Source: Pycnococcus provasolii (Eukaryota > Chlorophyta > Pseudoscourfieldiophyceae > Pseudoscourfieldiales > Pycnococcaceae). Taken from it: a stretch of DNA of 64,000 nucleotides. This document shows positions 28,107-36,016 of the stretch, piece by piece; the first letter of the stretch is position 1, and each line of letters begins with the position of its first letter. The translations under genes were made by a program, and so were the position numbers. Location: assembly GCA_938743325.2 (NCBI GenBank), contig OW568895.1:188501-252500 (forward strand), read 5' to 3'. Under the pieces are notes generated by a model, which saw nothing but the letters and a program-made list of their open reading frames with translations, searched no databases and was not told the origin of the DNA.

Positions 28107-28262
28107 AAACTTCCGCGAGCCACTCCTACCGGAATTTGATGATCGTGACTTTCGCGTGCAGAGTCGCGCCCCCCGTTGGATTGATGCTTCTCCCCGCCTC
28201 GTGTTGCAGTATTACGCGCCATCGTCCCGAGCCTGTTTGTCGGGACCATCACCTCGAACGCC
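28104..28262 (-). pseudogene. Shuffled fragments of a second TDP1-like gene
   Basis: On the minus strand, 28213-28127 encodes a peptide containing LQHEAGRSINPTGGATLHAK, almost identical to the first catalytic region of the neighbouring TDP1-like protein (LQHEAGRSINPTGGASLHAK). It is directly followed by a stop and EWLAEV, which lies about 110 residues further on in the intact gene. It is preceded by a piece matching the VMVQTGS region, which should come later. Order and frame are broken, so this is a decayed, rearranged partial copy. Confidence 0.75.
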
Positions 28263-28918
28263 GGGTATCGCAGGTGACGCCGCGGTCGCCGCCTCGTGAG
28301 TCCTGACGAGGCCGAGCCGCGCGCGGCCGCGCGCAGTGGACGACTTGCCGACTACTACTATGTACATTCAATGCTCAGCTTATGATGATAGATAACACAA
28401 CAAAAACAACAAACCACAACACAACCATCTAACGGTTCTCGACCGGGATCCCAACGAAAAAACATTTGCTTGGACATATCCGTGAGACCAACGAGGTGTC
28501 CCGGTCGGCCGGTCCAACTTGAAGTGCGCGGCATTTGGAGTAACCGAAACTGCACCGTTAGCACGACGATTGACAAGAAGTGGGTGAAGTATCCTTAAGT
28601 CGACCTCCCGTGACCTTAAACTCAAGAGTCAAGACAGAAGTCAAGACGTTGTCTGACGTTTTTCAAGACGTTTTTTTTTGCCGTTTTTGCTGGGGTGGAT
28701 TCGGGTAGGGTGTACCAGGGTTAGGGTTACGGTTAGGGCTAGACTGCTCAAGACGTTTTTTTCCAAATCCCCCGACCTGACCGTAGGTGGAACATCGCGG
28801 AGTTCCGTCGGGGGAACCTCCTCGGCTTTTCAAACGGATCTGCTTCTGCTCCCGGCCCCGCCCGCCTTCCCCCGATCGAAACAAAATAATCTTGTCACAA
28901 AAAAAAAGAAAGTTGGCC
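28263..28918. other. Intergenic region upstream of spermidine-synthase-like gene
   Basis: This region contains three TCAAGACGT motifs (28641, 28663, 28748) and a short GGTTAGGGTTACGGTTAGGG telomere-like stretch at about 28718-28738. I see no supported gene. Confidence 0.45.
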
Positions 28919-30940
28919 ATGCCGGCATTGGCGTCGGCGTCGGCGTCGTCAGCAGGTGGTGGTGGTGGTGGTGGTGGTGGTGGTGGTTCTCCAAGTAATA
29001 GTTCGCTGCTCCAAACGATCCACTTAAGTTTACTACGGTGTATCCATCCGTCGAAACGTCTCAATAATTCTCTCAGTTGTCTCGCCTCTCGCCAATGCCT
29101 CTCGTCATTGCACTATGTGTGCGAATACAGTGAGAGCTTAGAAGATGAACTTGACGAGGACTCCCTTCACCAACTTCTTGATGACAACAACTCCAGCTCT
29201 TTCTCCATGCTTTCTTTCTTGACCACGCTCGCCGACGTTGCGCTGGTGTGCTCCTCCTCCTGCTCCTCTGAGATGTTGTTGACGGCGCAACTTCATCTCG
29301 CATTGGGAGCCTGCGCGAACCTTGTCGCAGCCCTACCTGCAAACTTCACAAGGCCGATCGCCGCCAAACTTGTCGACGCTGCAGCCGTATGCGCACACAA
29401 CGCACCAACGCCTGTGGTGAACCTGGCAAGCAATGTATTCGCACAAGACCAAGAAAGCATTTCAGGCACAACCCCACAAACGCAAGCGAAGTGGAGAAAC
29501 TTGCTTGCTGCTCAACTAGGAAATATCGAGGACACCGACGACGTCGACAGCGCTATCGCCGTCATCGTAGACGCACTCTGCCACGACGACGGCGATGTGC
29601 GCGAGGCGGCGGCGGCCGCCGCCGCCGCAGGACCCGACGCCGTCTCCGCTGTCGCCTGTGCCGCATGTCGTTCGCAAGACGGCGCCGCAGATGCACTTGC
29701 GCGCGCACTCTTCGAAGACGCGTGGGCACTTGCGGATGACGCGACGAAAAGACTGGACAACATCGACGACATAATCACTGTCCTTCGTCGACATGCCAAA
29801 AAATCACCACGTGCTGCTGAGACGTTGCGTGCGCTCCAATCAGGCGACGAAAACAAAAAGGACGACGACGGCGATGACAACCGCAATCCAGCTGCTCTCG
29901 AGCGTCTGCTTGGAGACCACGCCAACAAGGCAAGCACGACGCGGCCGCTATCTAAACTTGTTTTCATGCGCCGCTCGTCAATCAGCTCGCATGGCATCGT
30001 GTCTGTGGCACAGCACGGCAAGTCGTGGTGCGTGCTGCGCCTCGGATGCTGCCCACAGGGATGCTACCACACCGACGATGGAGACTCCGCGCTAGGCTTC
30101 GACTACGTGCGAGCGCTCGCGGCGTGCGCATCGCCGACAATAAACACAAAGGCGGCTTGCCTTAGTATAGGACTTGGCGCGGGTTCGCTTCCACGCTTCT
30201 TTGCACGACGTGGGGGATTTGGAGCGTGTCACGTGCTCGAGCTGGATGCGGCTGTCGTGGAAGCGTGCAAGACAACGTTACATCTGCGATGCGATGTCGT
30301 AGGTGGGGAAGATGTTGCGCGAGCATTGGGATGGGAAGGTGGCGGACATCGGCGTGGTCAAGGTGTGCGCGTGTGGATTGGAGATGGTGCGGATGCTCTC
30401 CCTCATCTCGTGAATGATGACAATACATCGTACGCAGCGATCTTCGTCGATGCCTACGACAGCCGTGGTCGTGTGCCAACATCATTCTACGAAGCCAATA
30501 TCCTTCGTGCTTGTTGTACGCTAGCCGCACGCCACGTCGTGCAGACTCGCTTGCCCGCCGTGGTGGTTGCGAATGTCTTCGACGGTACTGCCGAGGCGCG
30601 TGCGGACCTGTTGTCTTTGGCCACCACGTTGAATGCAGAATCTGAGATTGTGTGTGAAAGCATGCATGTGCACACGAGCACGCCGCATACCGTTCCGCTC
30701 GTTTCATCCACAGGCCGCGCTAATTCTGCGCTCGCCTTGTGGTTTCGATTCAGTGAATCGCGCGAAAAGCGCAAGGCACCTTTCATTCCCTCTCCGACAA
30801 CAAATGCGAACACCCTTTTATGGCCCTTCGACCCAAACTTGTATCTGCAAGGAGCACGTGCTGTGGACATGGGTGGTGGTGATGTTGGTGGTGTTGGTGA
30901 CCCACCAGGAAAGCGAAGACGTGGTATAACAAATATGTAA
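28919..30940 (+). CDS. Spermidine-synthase-fold protein with long N-terminal region
   Basis: The 673-aa product starts at the ATG at 28919; the longer frame begins with GTG. A Gly11 run follows the start. Residues ~30-385 are helical and Ala/Asp rich with no family I recognise; they may form alpha-helical repeats. The C-terminal ~270 residues have a SAM-type Rossmann fold: CLSIGLGAGSLPRFF (~415), HVLELDAAVVEACK, WIGDGADALPHL and AAIFVDAYDS, as in spermidine-synthase-like methyltransferases. Polyamine synthesis itself cannot be claimed, because the usual substrate residues are not evident. It converges on the phosphatase-kinase gene, with only 22 bp between the two stop codons. Confidence 0.65.
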   Translation: MPALASASASSAGGGGGGGGGGGSPSNSSLLQTIHLSLLRCIHPSKRLNNSLSCLASRQCLSSLHYVCEYSESLEDELDEDSLHQLLDDNNSSSFSMLSFLTTLADVALVCSSSCSSEMLLTAQLHLALGACANLVAALPANFTRPIAAKLVDAAAVCAHNAPTPVVNLASNVFAQDQESISGTTPQTQAKWRNLLAAQLGNIEDTDDVDSAIAVIVDALCHDDGDVREAAAAAAAAGPDAVSAVACAACRSQDGAADALARALFEDAWALADDATKRLDNIDDIITVLRRHAKKSPRAAETLRALQSGDENKKDDDGDDNRNPAALERLLGDHANKASTTRPLSKLVFMRRSSISSHGIVSVAQHGKSWCVLRLGCCPQGCYHTDDGDSALGFDYVRALAACASPTINTKAACLSIGLGAGSLPRFFARRGGFGACHVLELDAAVVEACKTTLHLRCDVVGGEDVARALGWEGGGHRRGQGVRVWIGDGADALPHLVNDDNTSYAAIFVDAYDSRGRVPTSFYEANILRACCTLAARHVVQTRLPAVVVANVFDGTAEARADLLSLATTLNAESEIVCESMHVHTSTPHTVPLVSSTGRANSALALWFRFSESREKRKAPFIPSPTTNANTLLWPFDPNLYLQGARAVDMGGGDVGGVGDPPGKRRRGITNM

Positions 30941-30962: not shown

Positions 30963-33602
30963 TCAAGCAGTACGCGCCTCGCGCTTCCTCAGCATGTTGT
31001 CCGCCTGACGAACGAGCCAGCAGGCGTGATCCACTGATTTGTTGTAGGAATTGCGGCCTAGTGATTTTCGATTCGCAGCGAGAGTTGTTGGACTCGCTTT
31101 GACACGAGCCCACTGATACGCAAACACGCAACGGCACATGTCGAGCACAGCCGATTCGTATTGCTGCGTGAGCACGTCACGAGGAAGCAGAAGGCGCGCC
31201 TCATCGATATTATCCGCCGCACCGTAGCGCACGAAGCTCTCCATCAAGCACGTGTGGTAATGATCCAGCAACGCCTCCTCCTTCGATCCGTCCGCAGATA
31301 AACACTCAATCCGTAAAGCTGCGACAATGTGATGAGCCACATCGGTGGCGGCGAGGCCGAAGCCGCACCACTGAAAGTCGATGAATCCCACGCCAACTGT
31401 GCCATCATCCTCGTCTCGGAAGAACACGTTTCCCTGCTTTGGGTCACCGTGTATCAGACACTTGCATCCAACTCCATTTCCAGTCGAGCCAAATGGATGC
31501 GCTTCCGCACCCACCTCCGCGGCAATACGTTGCAGTCTTTCACCTATTGTCGCAATCTCCACACCCTTGAGCATCGGTGACTTGGCAAACGCTTCGGCAA
31601 AATTTTCGCAGTGCATAGGCCAGTGTTCAGCGACGAGTGTCGTCAGTTGCTCGGCAGGCTGCATGGACGGCTGCCAGTACGCACCCGATGGCCAGACGGA
31701 AGACGTCAGCTCGTCTTGCGTCTCCTGTGATGCGGTACGCCAGAAAGCCGAATTCTCCCAAAAGTATGCATGCATCTTCGCCAAACCGGCGAGAGCTGCG
31801 TGTGCCTGTCTCTCGTCTAAAAGCCAAGATTGCGACCATCCATCCGACTCACGAAATTCTTGCAGGAGCAGCCCGAAGCGGCTTTCAATTGGGTCATGCT
31901 CGCAAGGCCTAAGATCCACGGCGTACGCTCGTGCGACCGGAACGCCGCTTTCCACGAGCGCCTCGCATGCCGCGGAGCCCAGAAACGACGCTTCCACGCC
32001 GTATGATTTCGTGTCTCTGGCCAGCTTCAGTGGTGCCGTGCGTGCTTTTAGACGCGCATGCTCTAGGTCACCCATGACGATACGCTTGTAGAATGCCGAT
32101 GCGGGAGGTGAAGGTACCGACGGCGACGGGCTCGCCGTGGTTGGCTGCCAATCAAAATCAAGGCGGCACGCGTCACTCATCAAACCTCGCACGGACCCCT
32201 TTTCTGGTGCTGAGTAACCAACGAGTTTGTATGCAGTCTCCTGCCCCGGCATCACCGATCCGAGAACTGCACGTTCCATCCAATCTCGATCTAGCGGTGC
32301 GCCCTCGAGACTTCGTGCTACATCCGCAGACTGTGCGATGCCATTGCGAACTTCAGCGTCGCCGTAGGCGCCATCTAGCAGCTTCAGAATTCGCGCATCT
32401 TCTCGCATTGCCTCACACACTTTGTCATGGTCGCCACGCCGTCCAGATCCTGATGCGATAACGCCGAGTGCATTGACGAGCCCTCCCGGCGCATCGGCGT
32501 CGTGCACAAGCGGAGCTCCAAAGAGATCGCTCACGTGCCCGCCCGTTGCCCGAACGACTGCTTCGGGTGCGCATGTATCCCACAGGCTTGTGCCAAAGTG
32601 CATAAGTGCAAAGTCAGCCCGCTCAGCGGCTACACAGAGCATCTTGTTGCCCGCACCGCCCTGGATCTCGTGCCTGACGGAATCTTCGCCGAGACTTGCA
32701 GCCAAGCAATCGCGTGCCGCGGCGAGAGTTGCGTTCTTGCTGTCTCCTGTCAAATTCACCGTGCTTGCATCGCCGAGTCTCTGAGCGTGCAGCGGCACGC
32801 CACCCTGTCTTTCTTGACCATCCTCGCCGACGACGCCTGAGCCGCCTTCCTCACCAACGATGCCGTATACGACGCAAGGCGCGCTTCCGTCAGCGGGAAA
32901 GGGCAAGCCGATGGCACCCGCGATAGCCCGTCCACGCCGCGCGACGCCAACGAGTGTTTGCACGGCACCGAGTCTTCCCTCAACGAACTCTCGCGTGCCG
33001 TCCACCGGGTCAACGAATACCGTGAGTTCGTCGACTGCGACTGTCGCTTCGTTCCCGCCTAGTTGTTTCAGGAGGTTATCTCGCAGCGCGGGTCCTTTTG
33101 CTGCCTGTTCCATCTCAGCGGCGCTGCATCCCGCGCTTCCATCCTCCTCTCCGACGATGCGCGCGGCTTGTATTGCGGGCGTGGAAGCGAGTGCAGCGAT
33201 GATCGCTTTTTGTGCCGCCAAGTCCGCCTCTGTGAGCATGGATCGCGCGTCACCTTCCACTTTCATCGACGCGGCGATTCGACGGCCACCCTCCCTTTGA
33301 GAATTCGATTCCGAACCACCTTGAATTTGTTCATCGTGTACTCTTCTAATTTCAAACAAGCCTCTCAGTGAAGCATCGACCAGAATTGACGTCAATGCTG
33401 AGAGGGAGATCCGGTGATCCTCCATATGAACCAAACCACCAACCTCTTGAAAACCACCACCACGACCTGATGATGATGATGAAGATGAAGAAGGACAGGA
33501 AGAAGGACAGGAAGAAGAATGACGTCCTTGTCGCACACCAACACAACCACGCACACGCACACGCACACGCCCGAGGTTGAGGCCCGATGAAAACGAGAGC
33601 AT
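30963..33602 (-). CDS. Fusion: 3'(2'),5'-bisphosphate nucleotidase + EcKinase-like kinase
   Basis: The 879-aa frame starts at the ATG at 33602; a second plausible ATG at 33425 (MEDHRISLSALTS) would give 820 aa. The N-terminal domain is a BPNT1-like phosphatase of the inositol-monophosphatase family, with GEED (~153), DPVDGTREFVEG (~198) and WDTCAPEAV (~340). All metal ligands are kept, so it should hydrolyse 3'-phosphoadenosine 5'-phosphate or a similar substrate. The C-terminal ~390 residues form an aminoglycoside-phosphotransferase/ecdysteroid-kinase-like fold, with CLIHGDPKQGNVFF (~717) and GFIDFQWCG (~740). Its substrate is unknown. The Ser/Arg-rich first 60 residues could be a targeting peptide. 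No intron or stop separates the domains. Confidence 0.8.
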   Translation of the reverse strand: MLSFSSGLNLGRVRVRVRGCVGVRQGRHSSSCPSSCPSSSSSSSSGRGGGFQEVGGLVHMEDHRISLSALTSILVDASLRGLFEIRRVHDEQIQGGSESNSQREGGRRIAASMKVEGDARSMLTEADLAAQKAIIAALASTPAIQAARIVGEEDGSAGCSAAEMEQAAKGPALRDNLLKQLGGNEATVAVDELTVFVDPVDGTREFVEGRLGAVQTLVGVARRGRAIAGAIGLPFPADGSAPCVVYGIVGEEGGSGVVGEDGQERQGGVPLHAQRLGDASTVNLTGDSKNATLAAARDCLAASLGEDSVRHEIQGGAGNKMLCVAAERADFALMHFGTSLWDTCAPEAVVRATGGHVSDLFGAPLVHDADAPGGLVNALGVIASGSGRRGDHDKVCEAMREDARILKLLDGAYGDAEVRNGIAQSADVARSLEGAPLDRDWMERAVLGSVMPGQETAYKLVGYSAPEKGSVRGLMSDACRLDFDWQPTTASPSPSVPSPPASAFYKRIVMGDLEHARLKARTAPLKLARDTKSYGVEASFLGSAACEALVESGVPVARAYAVDLRPCEHDPIESRFGLLLQEFRESDGWSQSWLLDERQAHAALAGLAKMHAYFWENSAFWRTASQETQDELTSSVWPSGAYWQPSMQPAEQLTTLVAEHWPMHCENFAEAFAKSPMLKGVEIATIGERLQRIAAEVGAEAHPFGSTGNGVGCKCLIHGDPKQGNVFFRDEDDGTVGVGFIDFQWCGFGLAATDVAHHIVAALRIECLSADGSKEEALLDHYHTCLMESFVRYGAADNIDEARLLLPRDVLTQQYESAVLDMCRCVFAYQWARVKASPTTLAANRKSLGRNSYNKSVDHACWLVRQADNMLRKREARTA

Positions 33603-33664
33603 GCACACCTCTCTGTGGAGAATGATGCGATCTTTTCAAGGGGATAAGATGAAGATGAGATGAG

Positions 33665-33929
33665 TGTTGCCGTCTCCAACGGCAAATCCATCCCCTAATC
33701 ATACAAATCAATCCCCTAATCATTCAAATCACCTTTTTGAACCGTTTGTCACGTCTTGACCTGCCGCCATCACATGGCATCACATCAAGACGTTTCAAGA
33801 CGTGCTCGCGCGCTTTCTGACGCGCTTGACTCGCGGCGCGCTGGCGGCGCGCCCTACTTTCTGACCCTAGTAATAAGATCATTCTACTTTCTTGATTAAC
33901 TTTCCCTTCACGCCATAGCTGACGGCTAT
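33665..33929 (+). repeat. 5' LTR
   Basis: The LTR begins TGTTGCCGTC and ends GACGGCTAT, so its ends are partly complementary. It carries two direct TCAAGACGT motifs and one inverted ACGTCTTGA, plus GC-rich palindromic GGCGCGCTGGCGGCGCGCC. It lies 63 bp from the ATG at 33602 of the divergent fusion gene. Confidence 0.93.
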
Positions 33930-33984
33930 ACTTGGTGGAGACGCTTAGTGCTTATCTCTGTACGACACTCACAACGCTCAAACA

Positions 33985-34845
33985 ATGGTGGCGCAGTCAC
34001 CGACACCATCCCTCATCTCTCGCCTTCGCGACGCAGTGATGTCGCCTTTTCGGCAGACAAACGCGCAGGGTGCACCCTACGCGGCTGAATCGCAGATTCC
34101 GCGAAACGAACATGTGGACGACGACATCACGCCGACACCTACCGCTGAAGCGTCGTCATCCTTCGACTCGGATCAGTCTCATCCTCCTCCGCCACCACCT
34201 CCTCCACCGCCTCCTCCGCCACCGCCGGCGCAGGAGAACACAGCCGGAGACTTGCAGGCTGCTATCGCGATGCTCATGCAACAACAGCAGCAGCAGAACC
34301 AACTCATGCAGCAACGCATGGAACAACAACAACAACAACAACAACAGCAGCAGCAACACCTACTTGCTCTGATCCAAGCGTCGCATTCGCAGCTAGGATC
34401 AACACCTACATCGACTCCGTCCAAAATTCCCGCCGATTCAACATCGAAATCGACAGCTGCCCCGAGGGTGCACGTCCCGGAATACATGGTGACAGATTTT
34501 ACGGTGCAACTGGACGTCGACTTAGATACGTTCATTCTGCAGATGGAGGAGATTCTAGATCGCGCTGGATGCACGCAACAGCACGTCAAGCTCGCTTTCG
34601 TCGCTGATTTCCTGAAGGGGCGATCGAACAAGTGGTGGTGGACCGAACGACGTTCGAAGCAGATCGACACTTGGGTCGCATTCTGCGCAGCTCTTCGTGA
34701 TCACGCCACCAGCCGGGGAGTGCGCGAGTCGCGTATCACCGCGTTCGAAGAACTCGTCCAACAGCCGGGACAGTCCGATCGTGAGTGGAAATTATCGCTG
34801 CTGGATACCCACAACATTGCTCAGTGGAACCTGGGAACACTCTGA
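33985..34845 (+). CDS. Retrotransposon gag-like protein
   Basis: This 286-aa single ORF is the only one in the LTR element. It contains a Pro12 run (~70-83), a Gln-rich stretch (~90-125), then a helical capsid-like region with FLKGRSNKWWWTERRSK, recalling the retrotransposon gag domain. The nucleocapsid zinc knuckle and all pol domains are absent. The frame ends 27 bp before the 3' LTR, as if an internal deletion joined gag to the end of the element. Confidence 0.8.
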   Translation: MVAQSPTPSLISRLRDAVMSPFRQTNAQGAPYAAESQIPRNEHVDDDITPTPTAEASSSFDSDQSHPPPPPPPPPPPPPPPAQENTAGDLQAAIAMLMQQQQQQNQLMQQRMEQQQQQQQQQQQHLLALIQASHSQLGSTPTSTPSKIPADSTSKSTAAPRVHVPEYMVTDFTVQLDVDLDTFILQMEEILDRAGCTQQHVKLAFVADFLKGRSNKWWWTERRSKQIDTWVAFCAALRDHATSRGVRESRITAFEELVQQPGQSDREWKLSLLDTHNIAQWNLGTL

Positions 34846-34871
34846 CCCACCCAGGACGGAGGGGGGGCGAG

Positions 34872-35136
34872 TGTTGCCGTCTCCAACGGCAAATCCATCC
34901 CCTAATCATACAAATCAATCCCCTAATCATTCAAATCACCTTTTTGAACCGTTTGTCACGTCTTGACCTGCCGCCATCACATGGCATCACATCAAGACGT
35001 TTCAAGACGTGCTCGCGCGCTTTCTGACGCGCTTGACTCGCGGCGCGCTGGCGGCGCGCCCTACTTTCTGACCCTAGTAATAAGATCATTCTACTTTCTT
35101 GATTAACTTTCCCTTCACGCCATAGCTGACGGCTAT
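34872..35136 (+). repeat. 3' LTR
   Basis: This copy is identical to the 5' LTR over 265 bp. It is followed by the ATGAG target duplication. Confidence 0.93.
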
Positions 35137-35149
35137 ATGAGGGAAATCG

Positions 35150-35255
35150 AAGTAAAATCTTTAGGGGGTTCGCGGTCGAATTAAGAGTTAGGGGTTTCGC
35201 GTTCGAATTAGGGGTTCGAAGTAGGGGTTCGAAGTAGGGGTTCGCCCTCTCCAAA
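35150..35255. repeat. Degenerate TTAGGGGTTCG-type repeat
   Basis: Imperfect units of GAATTAGGGGTTCG and GAAGTAGGGGTTCG fill the space between the retrotransposon and the next gene. They resemble the telomere-like tracts elsewhere but with a longer unit. Confidence 0.6.
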
Positions 35256-35275
35256 ATCATTTTATCATTTGCCAC

Positions 35276-36016
35276 ATGTCATCATGGCGCGACACGCTCT
35301 TCGTCTGGCGCGGTGAATTGGTTGTGCTTGGAGAAGGAGTAGCCTTGTTGGAAGAGGGTGAAGATGATGTCGGCTCTTCTTCTGAAAAAGGTGCTTCCTA
35401 TAAATGGCGTGGCTATTGGGTAGGTGTCGACGCTGCAAACGCCGCTGCCTGTAACATGCCGCGACCCTATAGGTTTGGCGCCTCCGAGGCTGACGGCGAG
35501 TTCGTCGCGGCGCTAGCAGGCGCGCCGATACCATGCGTGGAGCCCATCCTCGCCTCAAGCAGCAAATACACACTCGACGGGGATCAGTGGCACGACGACG
35601 AGTCGCACGAGATTGTCGTTTCGCAACATTCCGACGTGGATGGCGCGCGGCTCGTTGCAGCAAGCGGTTACAACGAGTTCGGGCATTTCGTGAGCGTTGG
35701 AAGCCTCGAAGGCGGCGTCTTGTGTCTCGCGCGGAGATACCTTGAAAAGCGAGACGAGAGGTGTGTAATGCGTGCACAACAAGTGCTCAACGTGGCAGCA
35801 GCATCAGGGGCAGTGGGCGGGGAGGCGCCGTGGCGCACCGCTGCGGATTTAATGGTTTCGGCCTTGCAGCCGCGCAAGCGTGCGCGCGGCGGAGCGAGCG
35901 AGCAGCCCGCAACAGCGGGAAGCGGTGGGAACGAAGTCAAAGGCCGTGGACGTCTGCCGAAATCGGCGGACGGGAGGCGCCAACGGGAGAGAGGGGAGGG
36001 CGGCACGTACAAGTAA
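35276..36016 (+). CDS. Conserved-looking protein of unknown function
   Basis: The 246-aa single-exon product has a well-structured N-terminal two thirds with motifs WRDTLFVWRGELVVLG, YKWRGYWVGVDA, NEFGHFVSVGSL and LCLARRYLEKRDERCV. These read like a compact globular domain. The last ~60 residues are basic, Gly/Arg rich and disordered, with a KPRKRAR-like cluster (QPRKRARGG) that could be a nuclear signal. I do not recognise the family. It is immediately downstream of the retrotransposon, on the same strand. Confidence 0.6.
   Translation: MSSWRDTLFVWRGELVVLGEGVALLEEGEDDVGSSSEKGASYKWRGYWVGVDAANAAACNMPRPYRFGASEADGEFVAALAGAPIPCVEPILASSSKYTLDGDQWHDDESHEIVVSQHSDVDGARLVAASGYNEFGHFVSVGSLEGGVLCLARRYLEKRDERCVMRAQQVLNVAAASGAVGGEAPWRTAADLMVSALQPRKRARGGASEQPATAGSGGNEVKGRGRLPKSADGRRQRERGEGGTYK

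Follow-up and report, generated by a model that had tools for sequence, protein, structure and literature searches.

Membership in the plant TR-GAG class of non-autonomous LTR retrotransposons implies, as we read it, a complete gag and an amplified family of like elements. The rule given for this class is that only a GAG (or GAG+AP) domain is recognised, and an element of less than 2 kb falls to TRIM if its gag goes unrecognised (PMC6022998). The second point of reference is the chromoviruses, Ty3/Gypsy elements with a C-terminal chromodomain, for which 5-bp duplications and a tRNA-Met primer site are reported in beet (PMC3605345). We have analyzed an element found in a stretch of 64,000 nucleotides (hereafter the window) of the marine species Pycnococcus provasolii CCAP190/2, a green alga, as the initial annotation of this DNA had supposed. 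It is probably a deletion-derived chromovirus passenger, correctly seen in that annotation and over-classified there as TR-GAG. Taken alone, this copy is an ordinary defective retrotransposon. Together with its relatives it shows a compact, nearly chromosome-complete genome in which one lineage has made several very recent insertions, all without detectable reverse transcriptase (RT) and each differently rearranged, and such a genome lets one ask when deletions arise and who supplies the enzymes. Among the best matches listed in a search of the open-licence literature (titles and openings of abstracts) there was no description of these elements.

The two LTRs (33665-33930 and 34872-35137, plus strand) are base-identical direct copies of 266 bp, both reading TGTTGCC...GGCTATA in a base-for-base comparison, and are covered by a direct repeat of 269 nt, 100% identical, with a start-to-start distance of 1207. 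A chance origin of a perfect 266-bp repeat is far outside expectation. Each LTR has a terminal palindrome consisting of TTGCCGT, a 5-nt loop and ACGGCAA (33667-33685 and 34874-34892). The interior of 941 bp holds, on the plus strand, a primer-binding-like (PBS-like) site, TGGTGGAGACGC, 2 nt after the 5' LTR (33933-33944), one ORF of 286 aa that is open from ATG to TGA (33985-34845) and a purine-rich tract directly before the 3' LTR (34853-34871). In the tract, GGAGGGGGGG (34858-34867) is followed by CGAG and then by the LTR, and the relatives that we call subfamily B have GAGGGGAGGGGCGAG as purine tract at the same place. Two copies of TGAG flank the element as target site duplication (33661-33664 and 35138-35141). 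Paired LTRs, duplication, PBS-like site and purine tract are the marks of an LTR retrotransposon, and the non-autonomous element with intact ends, a single gag-like ORF and a purine tract that had been annotated is indeed present. The identity of the LTRs stands as well; their length and that of the interior, given as 265 and 942 bp, had to be corrected.

The size of the duplication was read from nine insertions with both ends readable, a set that includes both sites on contig C5 and leaves two sites of subfamily D (C14 and C19) outside. All nine have a 4-bp duplication and an LTR ending in ..ATA. The 5-bp duplication ATGAG proposed before fits three of them, the window copy among these, and fails in the other six, so that TGAG replaces it. 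An A stands both as the last base of the LTR and immediately ahead of TGAG, which explains how 265 bp and ATGAG had been arrived at. A remnant or an assembly artefact (a collapsed or mis-joined repeat) might be thought of given the exact identity of the LTRs, as repeats can be misassembled. The duplication matches on both sides, and the assembly is described as resting on 444-fold HiFi plus Hi-C data with a QV of 58.2 (PMC11130579), which makes this explanation highly improbable.

The ORF is clearly gag-like by homology to other gags of the same genome. Its identity is 51% with the gag ORF on C5, 50% with that on C2 and 46% with one on C4 (C4:798), while a second C4 copy (C4:759) gives 37% over the N-terminal part and protein P0001 gives 70% over 34% of the query. 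The Pfam family Retrotrans_gag scores 17.2 bits against a cut-off of 24.1, over residues 207-264 and profile positions 4-62 of 97. Between A (the subfamily of the window copy) and B, the gags share 51% of amino acids over 261 codons, with pS 0.79 and pN 0.36 and with 111, 72 and 179 mismatches at codon positions 1, 2 and 3; therefore the gag frame has been coding through the A-B divergence. A capsid-like part, putatively residues ~180-277 (34522-34815) and broken off before the capsid domain is complete, is indicated by the gag alignment, by the Pfam match below cut-off and by Foldseek matches that are not significant. The structure model of the protein was poor (mean pLDDT 52.7), its Foldseek matches in the PDB, including Arc and Ty3 capsids, had a best E of 0.031, and the suggested likeness to these capsids is weak. 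A sequence search of the PDB gave one match, which was unrelated.

The alignment with the other gags stops at residue 277 (..LLDTHN), within the capsid part, and the gags of C2 and C4:798 extend some 50-60 residues past this point. What follows in the window protein, joined in frame, is IAQWNLGTL and the stop (34816-34845). This tail resembles ARWNLGSI, the pol-derived end in the relatives on C2, C4, C5 and C17, and FAQWNLGQL, the C-terminus of P0002 (ENA, 233 aa). The stop and the 3' LTR are 26 nt apart in the window copy and 19 nt apart in C2, with a purine-rich end to this stretch in both. To judge from these tails and from their position just ahead of the purine tract, the last nine or so codons are most likely the end of a chromovirus pol (integrase/chromodomain end), nine residues being a short match, and a deletion running from gag into the final pol codons would have produced the ORF. 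The earlier statement that there is no pol gene holds in that a Pfam search of the ORF gives no pol domain, and it misses this pol-like end. In the B element on C5, a member of a different subfamily, gag is broken at the very codon that aligns with the break in the window copy (..LLDAHN near 832.5 kb of C5; 34810-34818 in the window); the coincidence could reflect either a hot spot or chance.

The plant TR-GAG class, to which the element had been assigned, resembles it in the LTRs and in having only a gag-like ORF. As a true TR-GAG the element would belong to a gag-only family selected as such, with a capsid of its own or a shared one and a partner supplying pol. The sole gag-like ORF is open and in frame, and LTRs and duplication are intact, as this explanation would have it. 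Against it, the gag is truncated within the capsid and can be aligned only to residue 277, where those of C2 and C4:798 run further; its Pfam match stays below cut-off; a pol-like tail remains; and in the searched assembly the element was found as at least one full copy and at least one solo LTR, with no amplified family. We consider the assignment improbable and do not retain it. TRIM and LARD elements are similar in being non-autonomous and having LTRs, and differ in that the window element has a coding ORF; specifically, its 941-bp interior with 286 codons is far from the very short non-coding interior of a TRIM.

The copy numbers, which are lower bounds, come from 46 contigs (cited by C numbers) with 32,333,900 bases and represent one haplotype. 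The published assembly of the strain is described as 44 chromosomal scaffolds, a 24.3-kb mitochondrion and the plastid, with the contigs of the second haplotype deposited apart (PMC11130579). RuBisCO, used as a marker for the host, gave one nuclear match, which was not informative. An LTR occurring only once in the genome had been named as grounds for abandoning the first reading. We looked for this and found a solo LTR at C22:611586-611851, with three substitutions and one gap relative to the window LTR and a duplication of its own, ATAG. The other matches of the window element were LTR pieces at 74-83% or short gag matches, mainly in the simple-repeat part of gag. Searches with queries of the B type (no A-type pol sequence being known) gave no support for a pol ORF mis-assembled elsewhere.

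The closest relatives are the five copies of subfamily B with readable ends, every one with a different interior, and no RT was detected in them. Like the window copy they have 4-bp duplications (5/5), TGT...ATA ends and the terminal palindrome, and three of the five (C2, C4 and C5:833) have a PBS-like site almost as in A; unlike it they have LTRs of 243-244 bp and keep pieces of integrase and chromodomain. The copy on C2 has one ORF of 480 aa in which gag is joined to an integrase end, chromodomain-like and finishing in ARWNLGSI. In C4:759 gag is joined to the end of RNase H with a 4-bp overlap, GTCA, and a foreign repeat follows inside the integrase. In C17 the site after the LTR is joined to RNase H, so that the PBS-like site is missing, and the integrase is interrupted by an insert of ~1 kb. 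The C5:745 copy has a truncated 5' LTR and keeps the integrase end. Finally, in C5:824-833 gag is joined to RNase H over a fusion in which 22 of 24 bp on the RNase H side are identical to C17, and a copia element was then inserted (C5:825.5-833 kb; identical 440-bp LTRs, duplication AGGCA; young). Since this copia sits inside the already formed fusion, the deletion between gag and RNase H preceded it. Downstream of it lies an open frame of 568 aa with the RNase H end, integrase and a chromodomain-like end. A decayed sixth piece on C28 has a piece of integrase and part of an LTR at 92%.

When nine of the ten B LTRs were compared (the truncated one was dropped), seven LTRs from four insertions (two each of C2 and C17, one of C5:745, and those at C5:824 and C5:833) showed no difference over 243 bp. 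The two C4 LTRs were identical to each other, with five substitutions and a gap relative to the rest. Four differently rearranged copies with identical LTRs suggest, as the simplest explanation, that the rearrangement accompanies transposition, a timing argument drawn from B and not from the window copy; the GTCA overlap at the C4 junction and the C5 deletion older than its copia are in line with it. The alternative of a full-length integration whose middle was later deleted in the chromosome by microhomology repair agrees with the 4-bp overlap at one B junction and with a D copy on C7 whose 3' LTR is itself cut by the deletion, and the structure of a single copy cannot discriminate. However, at each of the four B sites with identical LTRs and different interiors, large deletions would need to have happened faster than any base change. 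Gene conversion among B LTRs or rapid later deletion may also account for the four copies. Altogether we regard deletion after integration as rather unlikely, although a real contender.

Our analysis indicates that the window element is probably an internally deleted copy from a Ty3/Gypsy chromovirus lineage of low copy number, non-autonomous, shortened by a template jump and integrated by a helper. The jump would have taken place during reverse transcription and removed protease, RT, RNase H and integrase, and the shortened cDNA would then have been packaged and integrated by the proteins of an intact relative. On its own, the truncated gag is probably unable to form particles, and therefore the element would move only as a passenger. 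No full-length A element is known, so the window junction has no parent with which to be compared. The junctions of C2 and C5, inspected by eye, had no clear microhomology, which counts against this explanation. After its insertion, the copy would have had little time to change.

The chromovirus nature of the lineage is suggested by two comparisons at the sequence level. The C-terminal SH3 of the integrase (SH3_Tf2-1) scores 32.1 bits in C4 against a cut-off of 30, and PF00385 (Chromo) is present in 17 of the 34 homologs of the C17 integrase end. Against it, the Chromo match of the C4 relative stays below its Pfam cut-off (12.1 against 25.1 bits). With chromoviruses the lineage shares the integrase SH3, the chromodomain-like end and a Ty3-like gag. 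The window copy departs from them in lacking pol and RT, in having lost the chromodomain by deletion and in its ends, which are not TG...CA; the lineage has 4-bp duplications and the beet chromoviruses 5-bp ones. Outside Pycnococcus, RI054_39g143750 (P0003) of Pseudoscourfieldia marina matches the B integrase of C4, C5 and C17 with 98% identity over 84 aa, and thus this close relative has subfamily B as well; the P0003 sequence is an interrupted fragment of B, and no A-type sequence was seen there.

An autonomous partner had been expected in the genome, and none was found in the searched haplotype. The queries were the gag, the integrase and RNase H ends of B, and the profiles PF00665 and PF00078 (RVT_1), scoring only the best candidates. 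The gag, RNase H-end and integrase-end queries retrieved deleted copies and fragments. The genome gave at least 37 matches of PF00078, a profile that may miss a divergent RT, and at least 40 of PF00665. All 37 RVT_1 matches were more than 70 kb away from any A or B locus (coordinates compared by eye). PF00665 did match at the B loci, in the open frame on C5 (C5:825653, with a score under the cut-off of the family) and in the copia insertion (C5:828949). Thus no partner with an RT can be seen in the searched haplotype, and searches of the best candidates cannot prove its absence. The helper may reside in the other haplotype or in other strains, or may have been lost recently.

Several candidates were rejected as partner. 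Next to the gag on C5, the long frame belongs to the copia insertion. Among weaker places, besides the decayed piece on C28, that on C26 is a frameshifted gag fragment and that at 208 kb of C22 a pol end 42% identical. Two others are among the retroelements matched by PF00665 or PF00078: a 2160-aa frame on C41 with a Ty3-type RT and another gag, without an LTR pair in 9 kb (C41:95700-104699), and a copia element on C9 with 329-bp LTRs. Neither had a match to an LTR of A, B or D or to a gag of A or C at E 1e-3. The C41 element presumably has a PHD-like region, and frames of 2127-2160 aa hold 15 of the 40 rve matches, on C41 and in 14 further places. Viral contigs contained no relative of the window gag or of the C17 integrase end.

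The primer was searched for with similar outcome. The PBS-like site of the window copy is one base from TGGTGGACACGC, the version of subfamilies B, C and D, and we take it to differ from a tRNA-Met primer site. A tRNA pattern with a perfect acceptor gave four matches against three in the control, and a T-arm pattern with up to two mismatches gave 60 against 72. Seven places of the latter were checked with ARAGORN, which found a tRNA at one, a tRNA-Ile on the mitochondrion-sized C45 (24,277 bp); its tail fits poorly with the PBS-like site and it was rejected. These pattern searches with the ARAGORN check yielded no primer tRNA for the site.

The element had been called young, a description that is justified relatively speaking. 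With no difference between the LTRs over 266 bp, their divergence has a 95% upper bound of ~1.1%, which does not give a date. At algal mutation rates around 4e-10 per site and generation, this bound allows up to about 13 million generations.

The remaining subfamilies show a further common trait. Subfamily D has loci on C7, C37, C19, C14 and C29, and its C7 copy (C7:391379-392109) has only the start of gag between LTRs and a 3' LTR without its first ~35 bp, with the duplication TACC intact; this cut looks post-integrational. The LTRs of A, B and C/D open with a palindrome that starts at position 1, 2 or 3 and has a stem of 6-7 bp; its arms are TTGCCGT/ACGGCAA, GTCACCG/CGGTGAC and (T)ATGACC/GGTCAT(A), respectively. 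In 21,300 window positions used as background, stems of at least 7 occurred at 0.2% and of at least 6 at 0.7%, and two copia LTRs tested had no terminal palindrome. The arms of C and D are the same, which leaves three independent cases. Differing arms at the same place of the LTR look like the compensatory evolution of a functional end, and candidate roles are recognition by the integrase and an RNA hairpin following the purine tract. The shared palindrome is a testable candidate recognition element. More tentatively still, and rather doubtfully in our own estimate, the chromovirus lineage of Pycnococcus might persist for the most part as a swarm of RT-less genomes, each deleted in its own way and similar to defective interfering genomes, which a helper that is rare or recently lost would mobilise; the lineage would recognise its own cDNA by unusual ends, namely TRT...ATA termini, 4-bp duplications and a palindrome kept by compensatory change.

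Regarding the insertion sites, TTAGGG-like motifs were found within 100 bp of six of the nine insertions (35138-35260 in the window and the flanks of those on C22, C37:337, C7, C2 and C4), compared with 23.6% of the non-ORF points of the window (P 0.007, post hoc and with a background from the window only), and a target preference is possible. Elsewhere in the window, ARAGORN with introns allowed reports at 28238-29638 a tRNA-Ala whose intron would measure 1306 nt, a call that is almost certainly spurious. The window copy lies 56 bp from the mechanical start of a minus-strand ORF (30963-33608) with inositol-monophosphatase and kinase-like domains according to Pfam, and on its other side the ORF 35276-36016 begins 138 bp beyond it.
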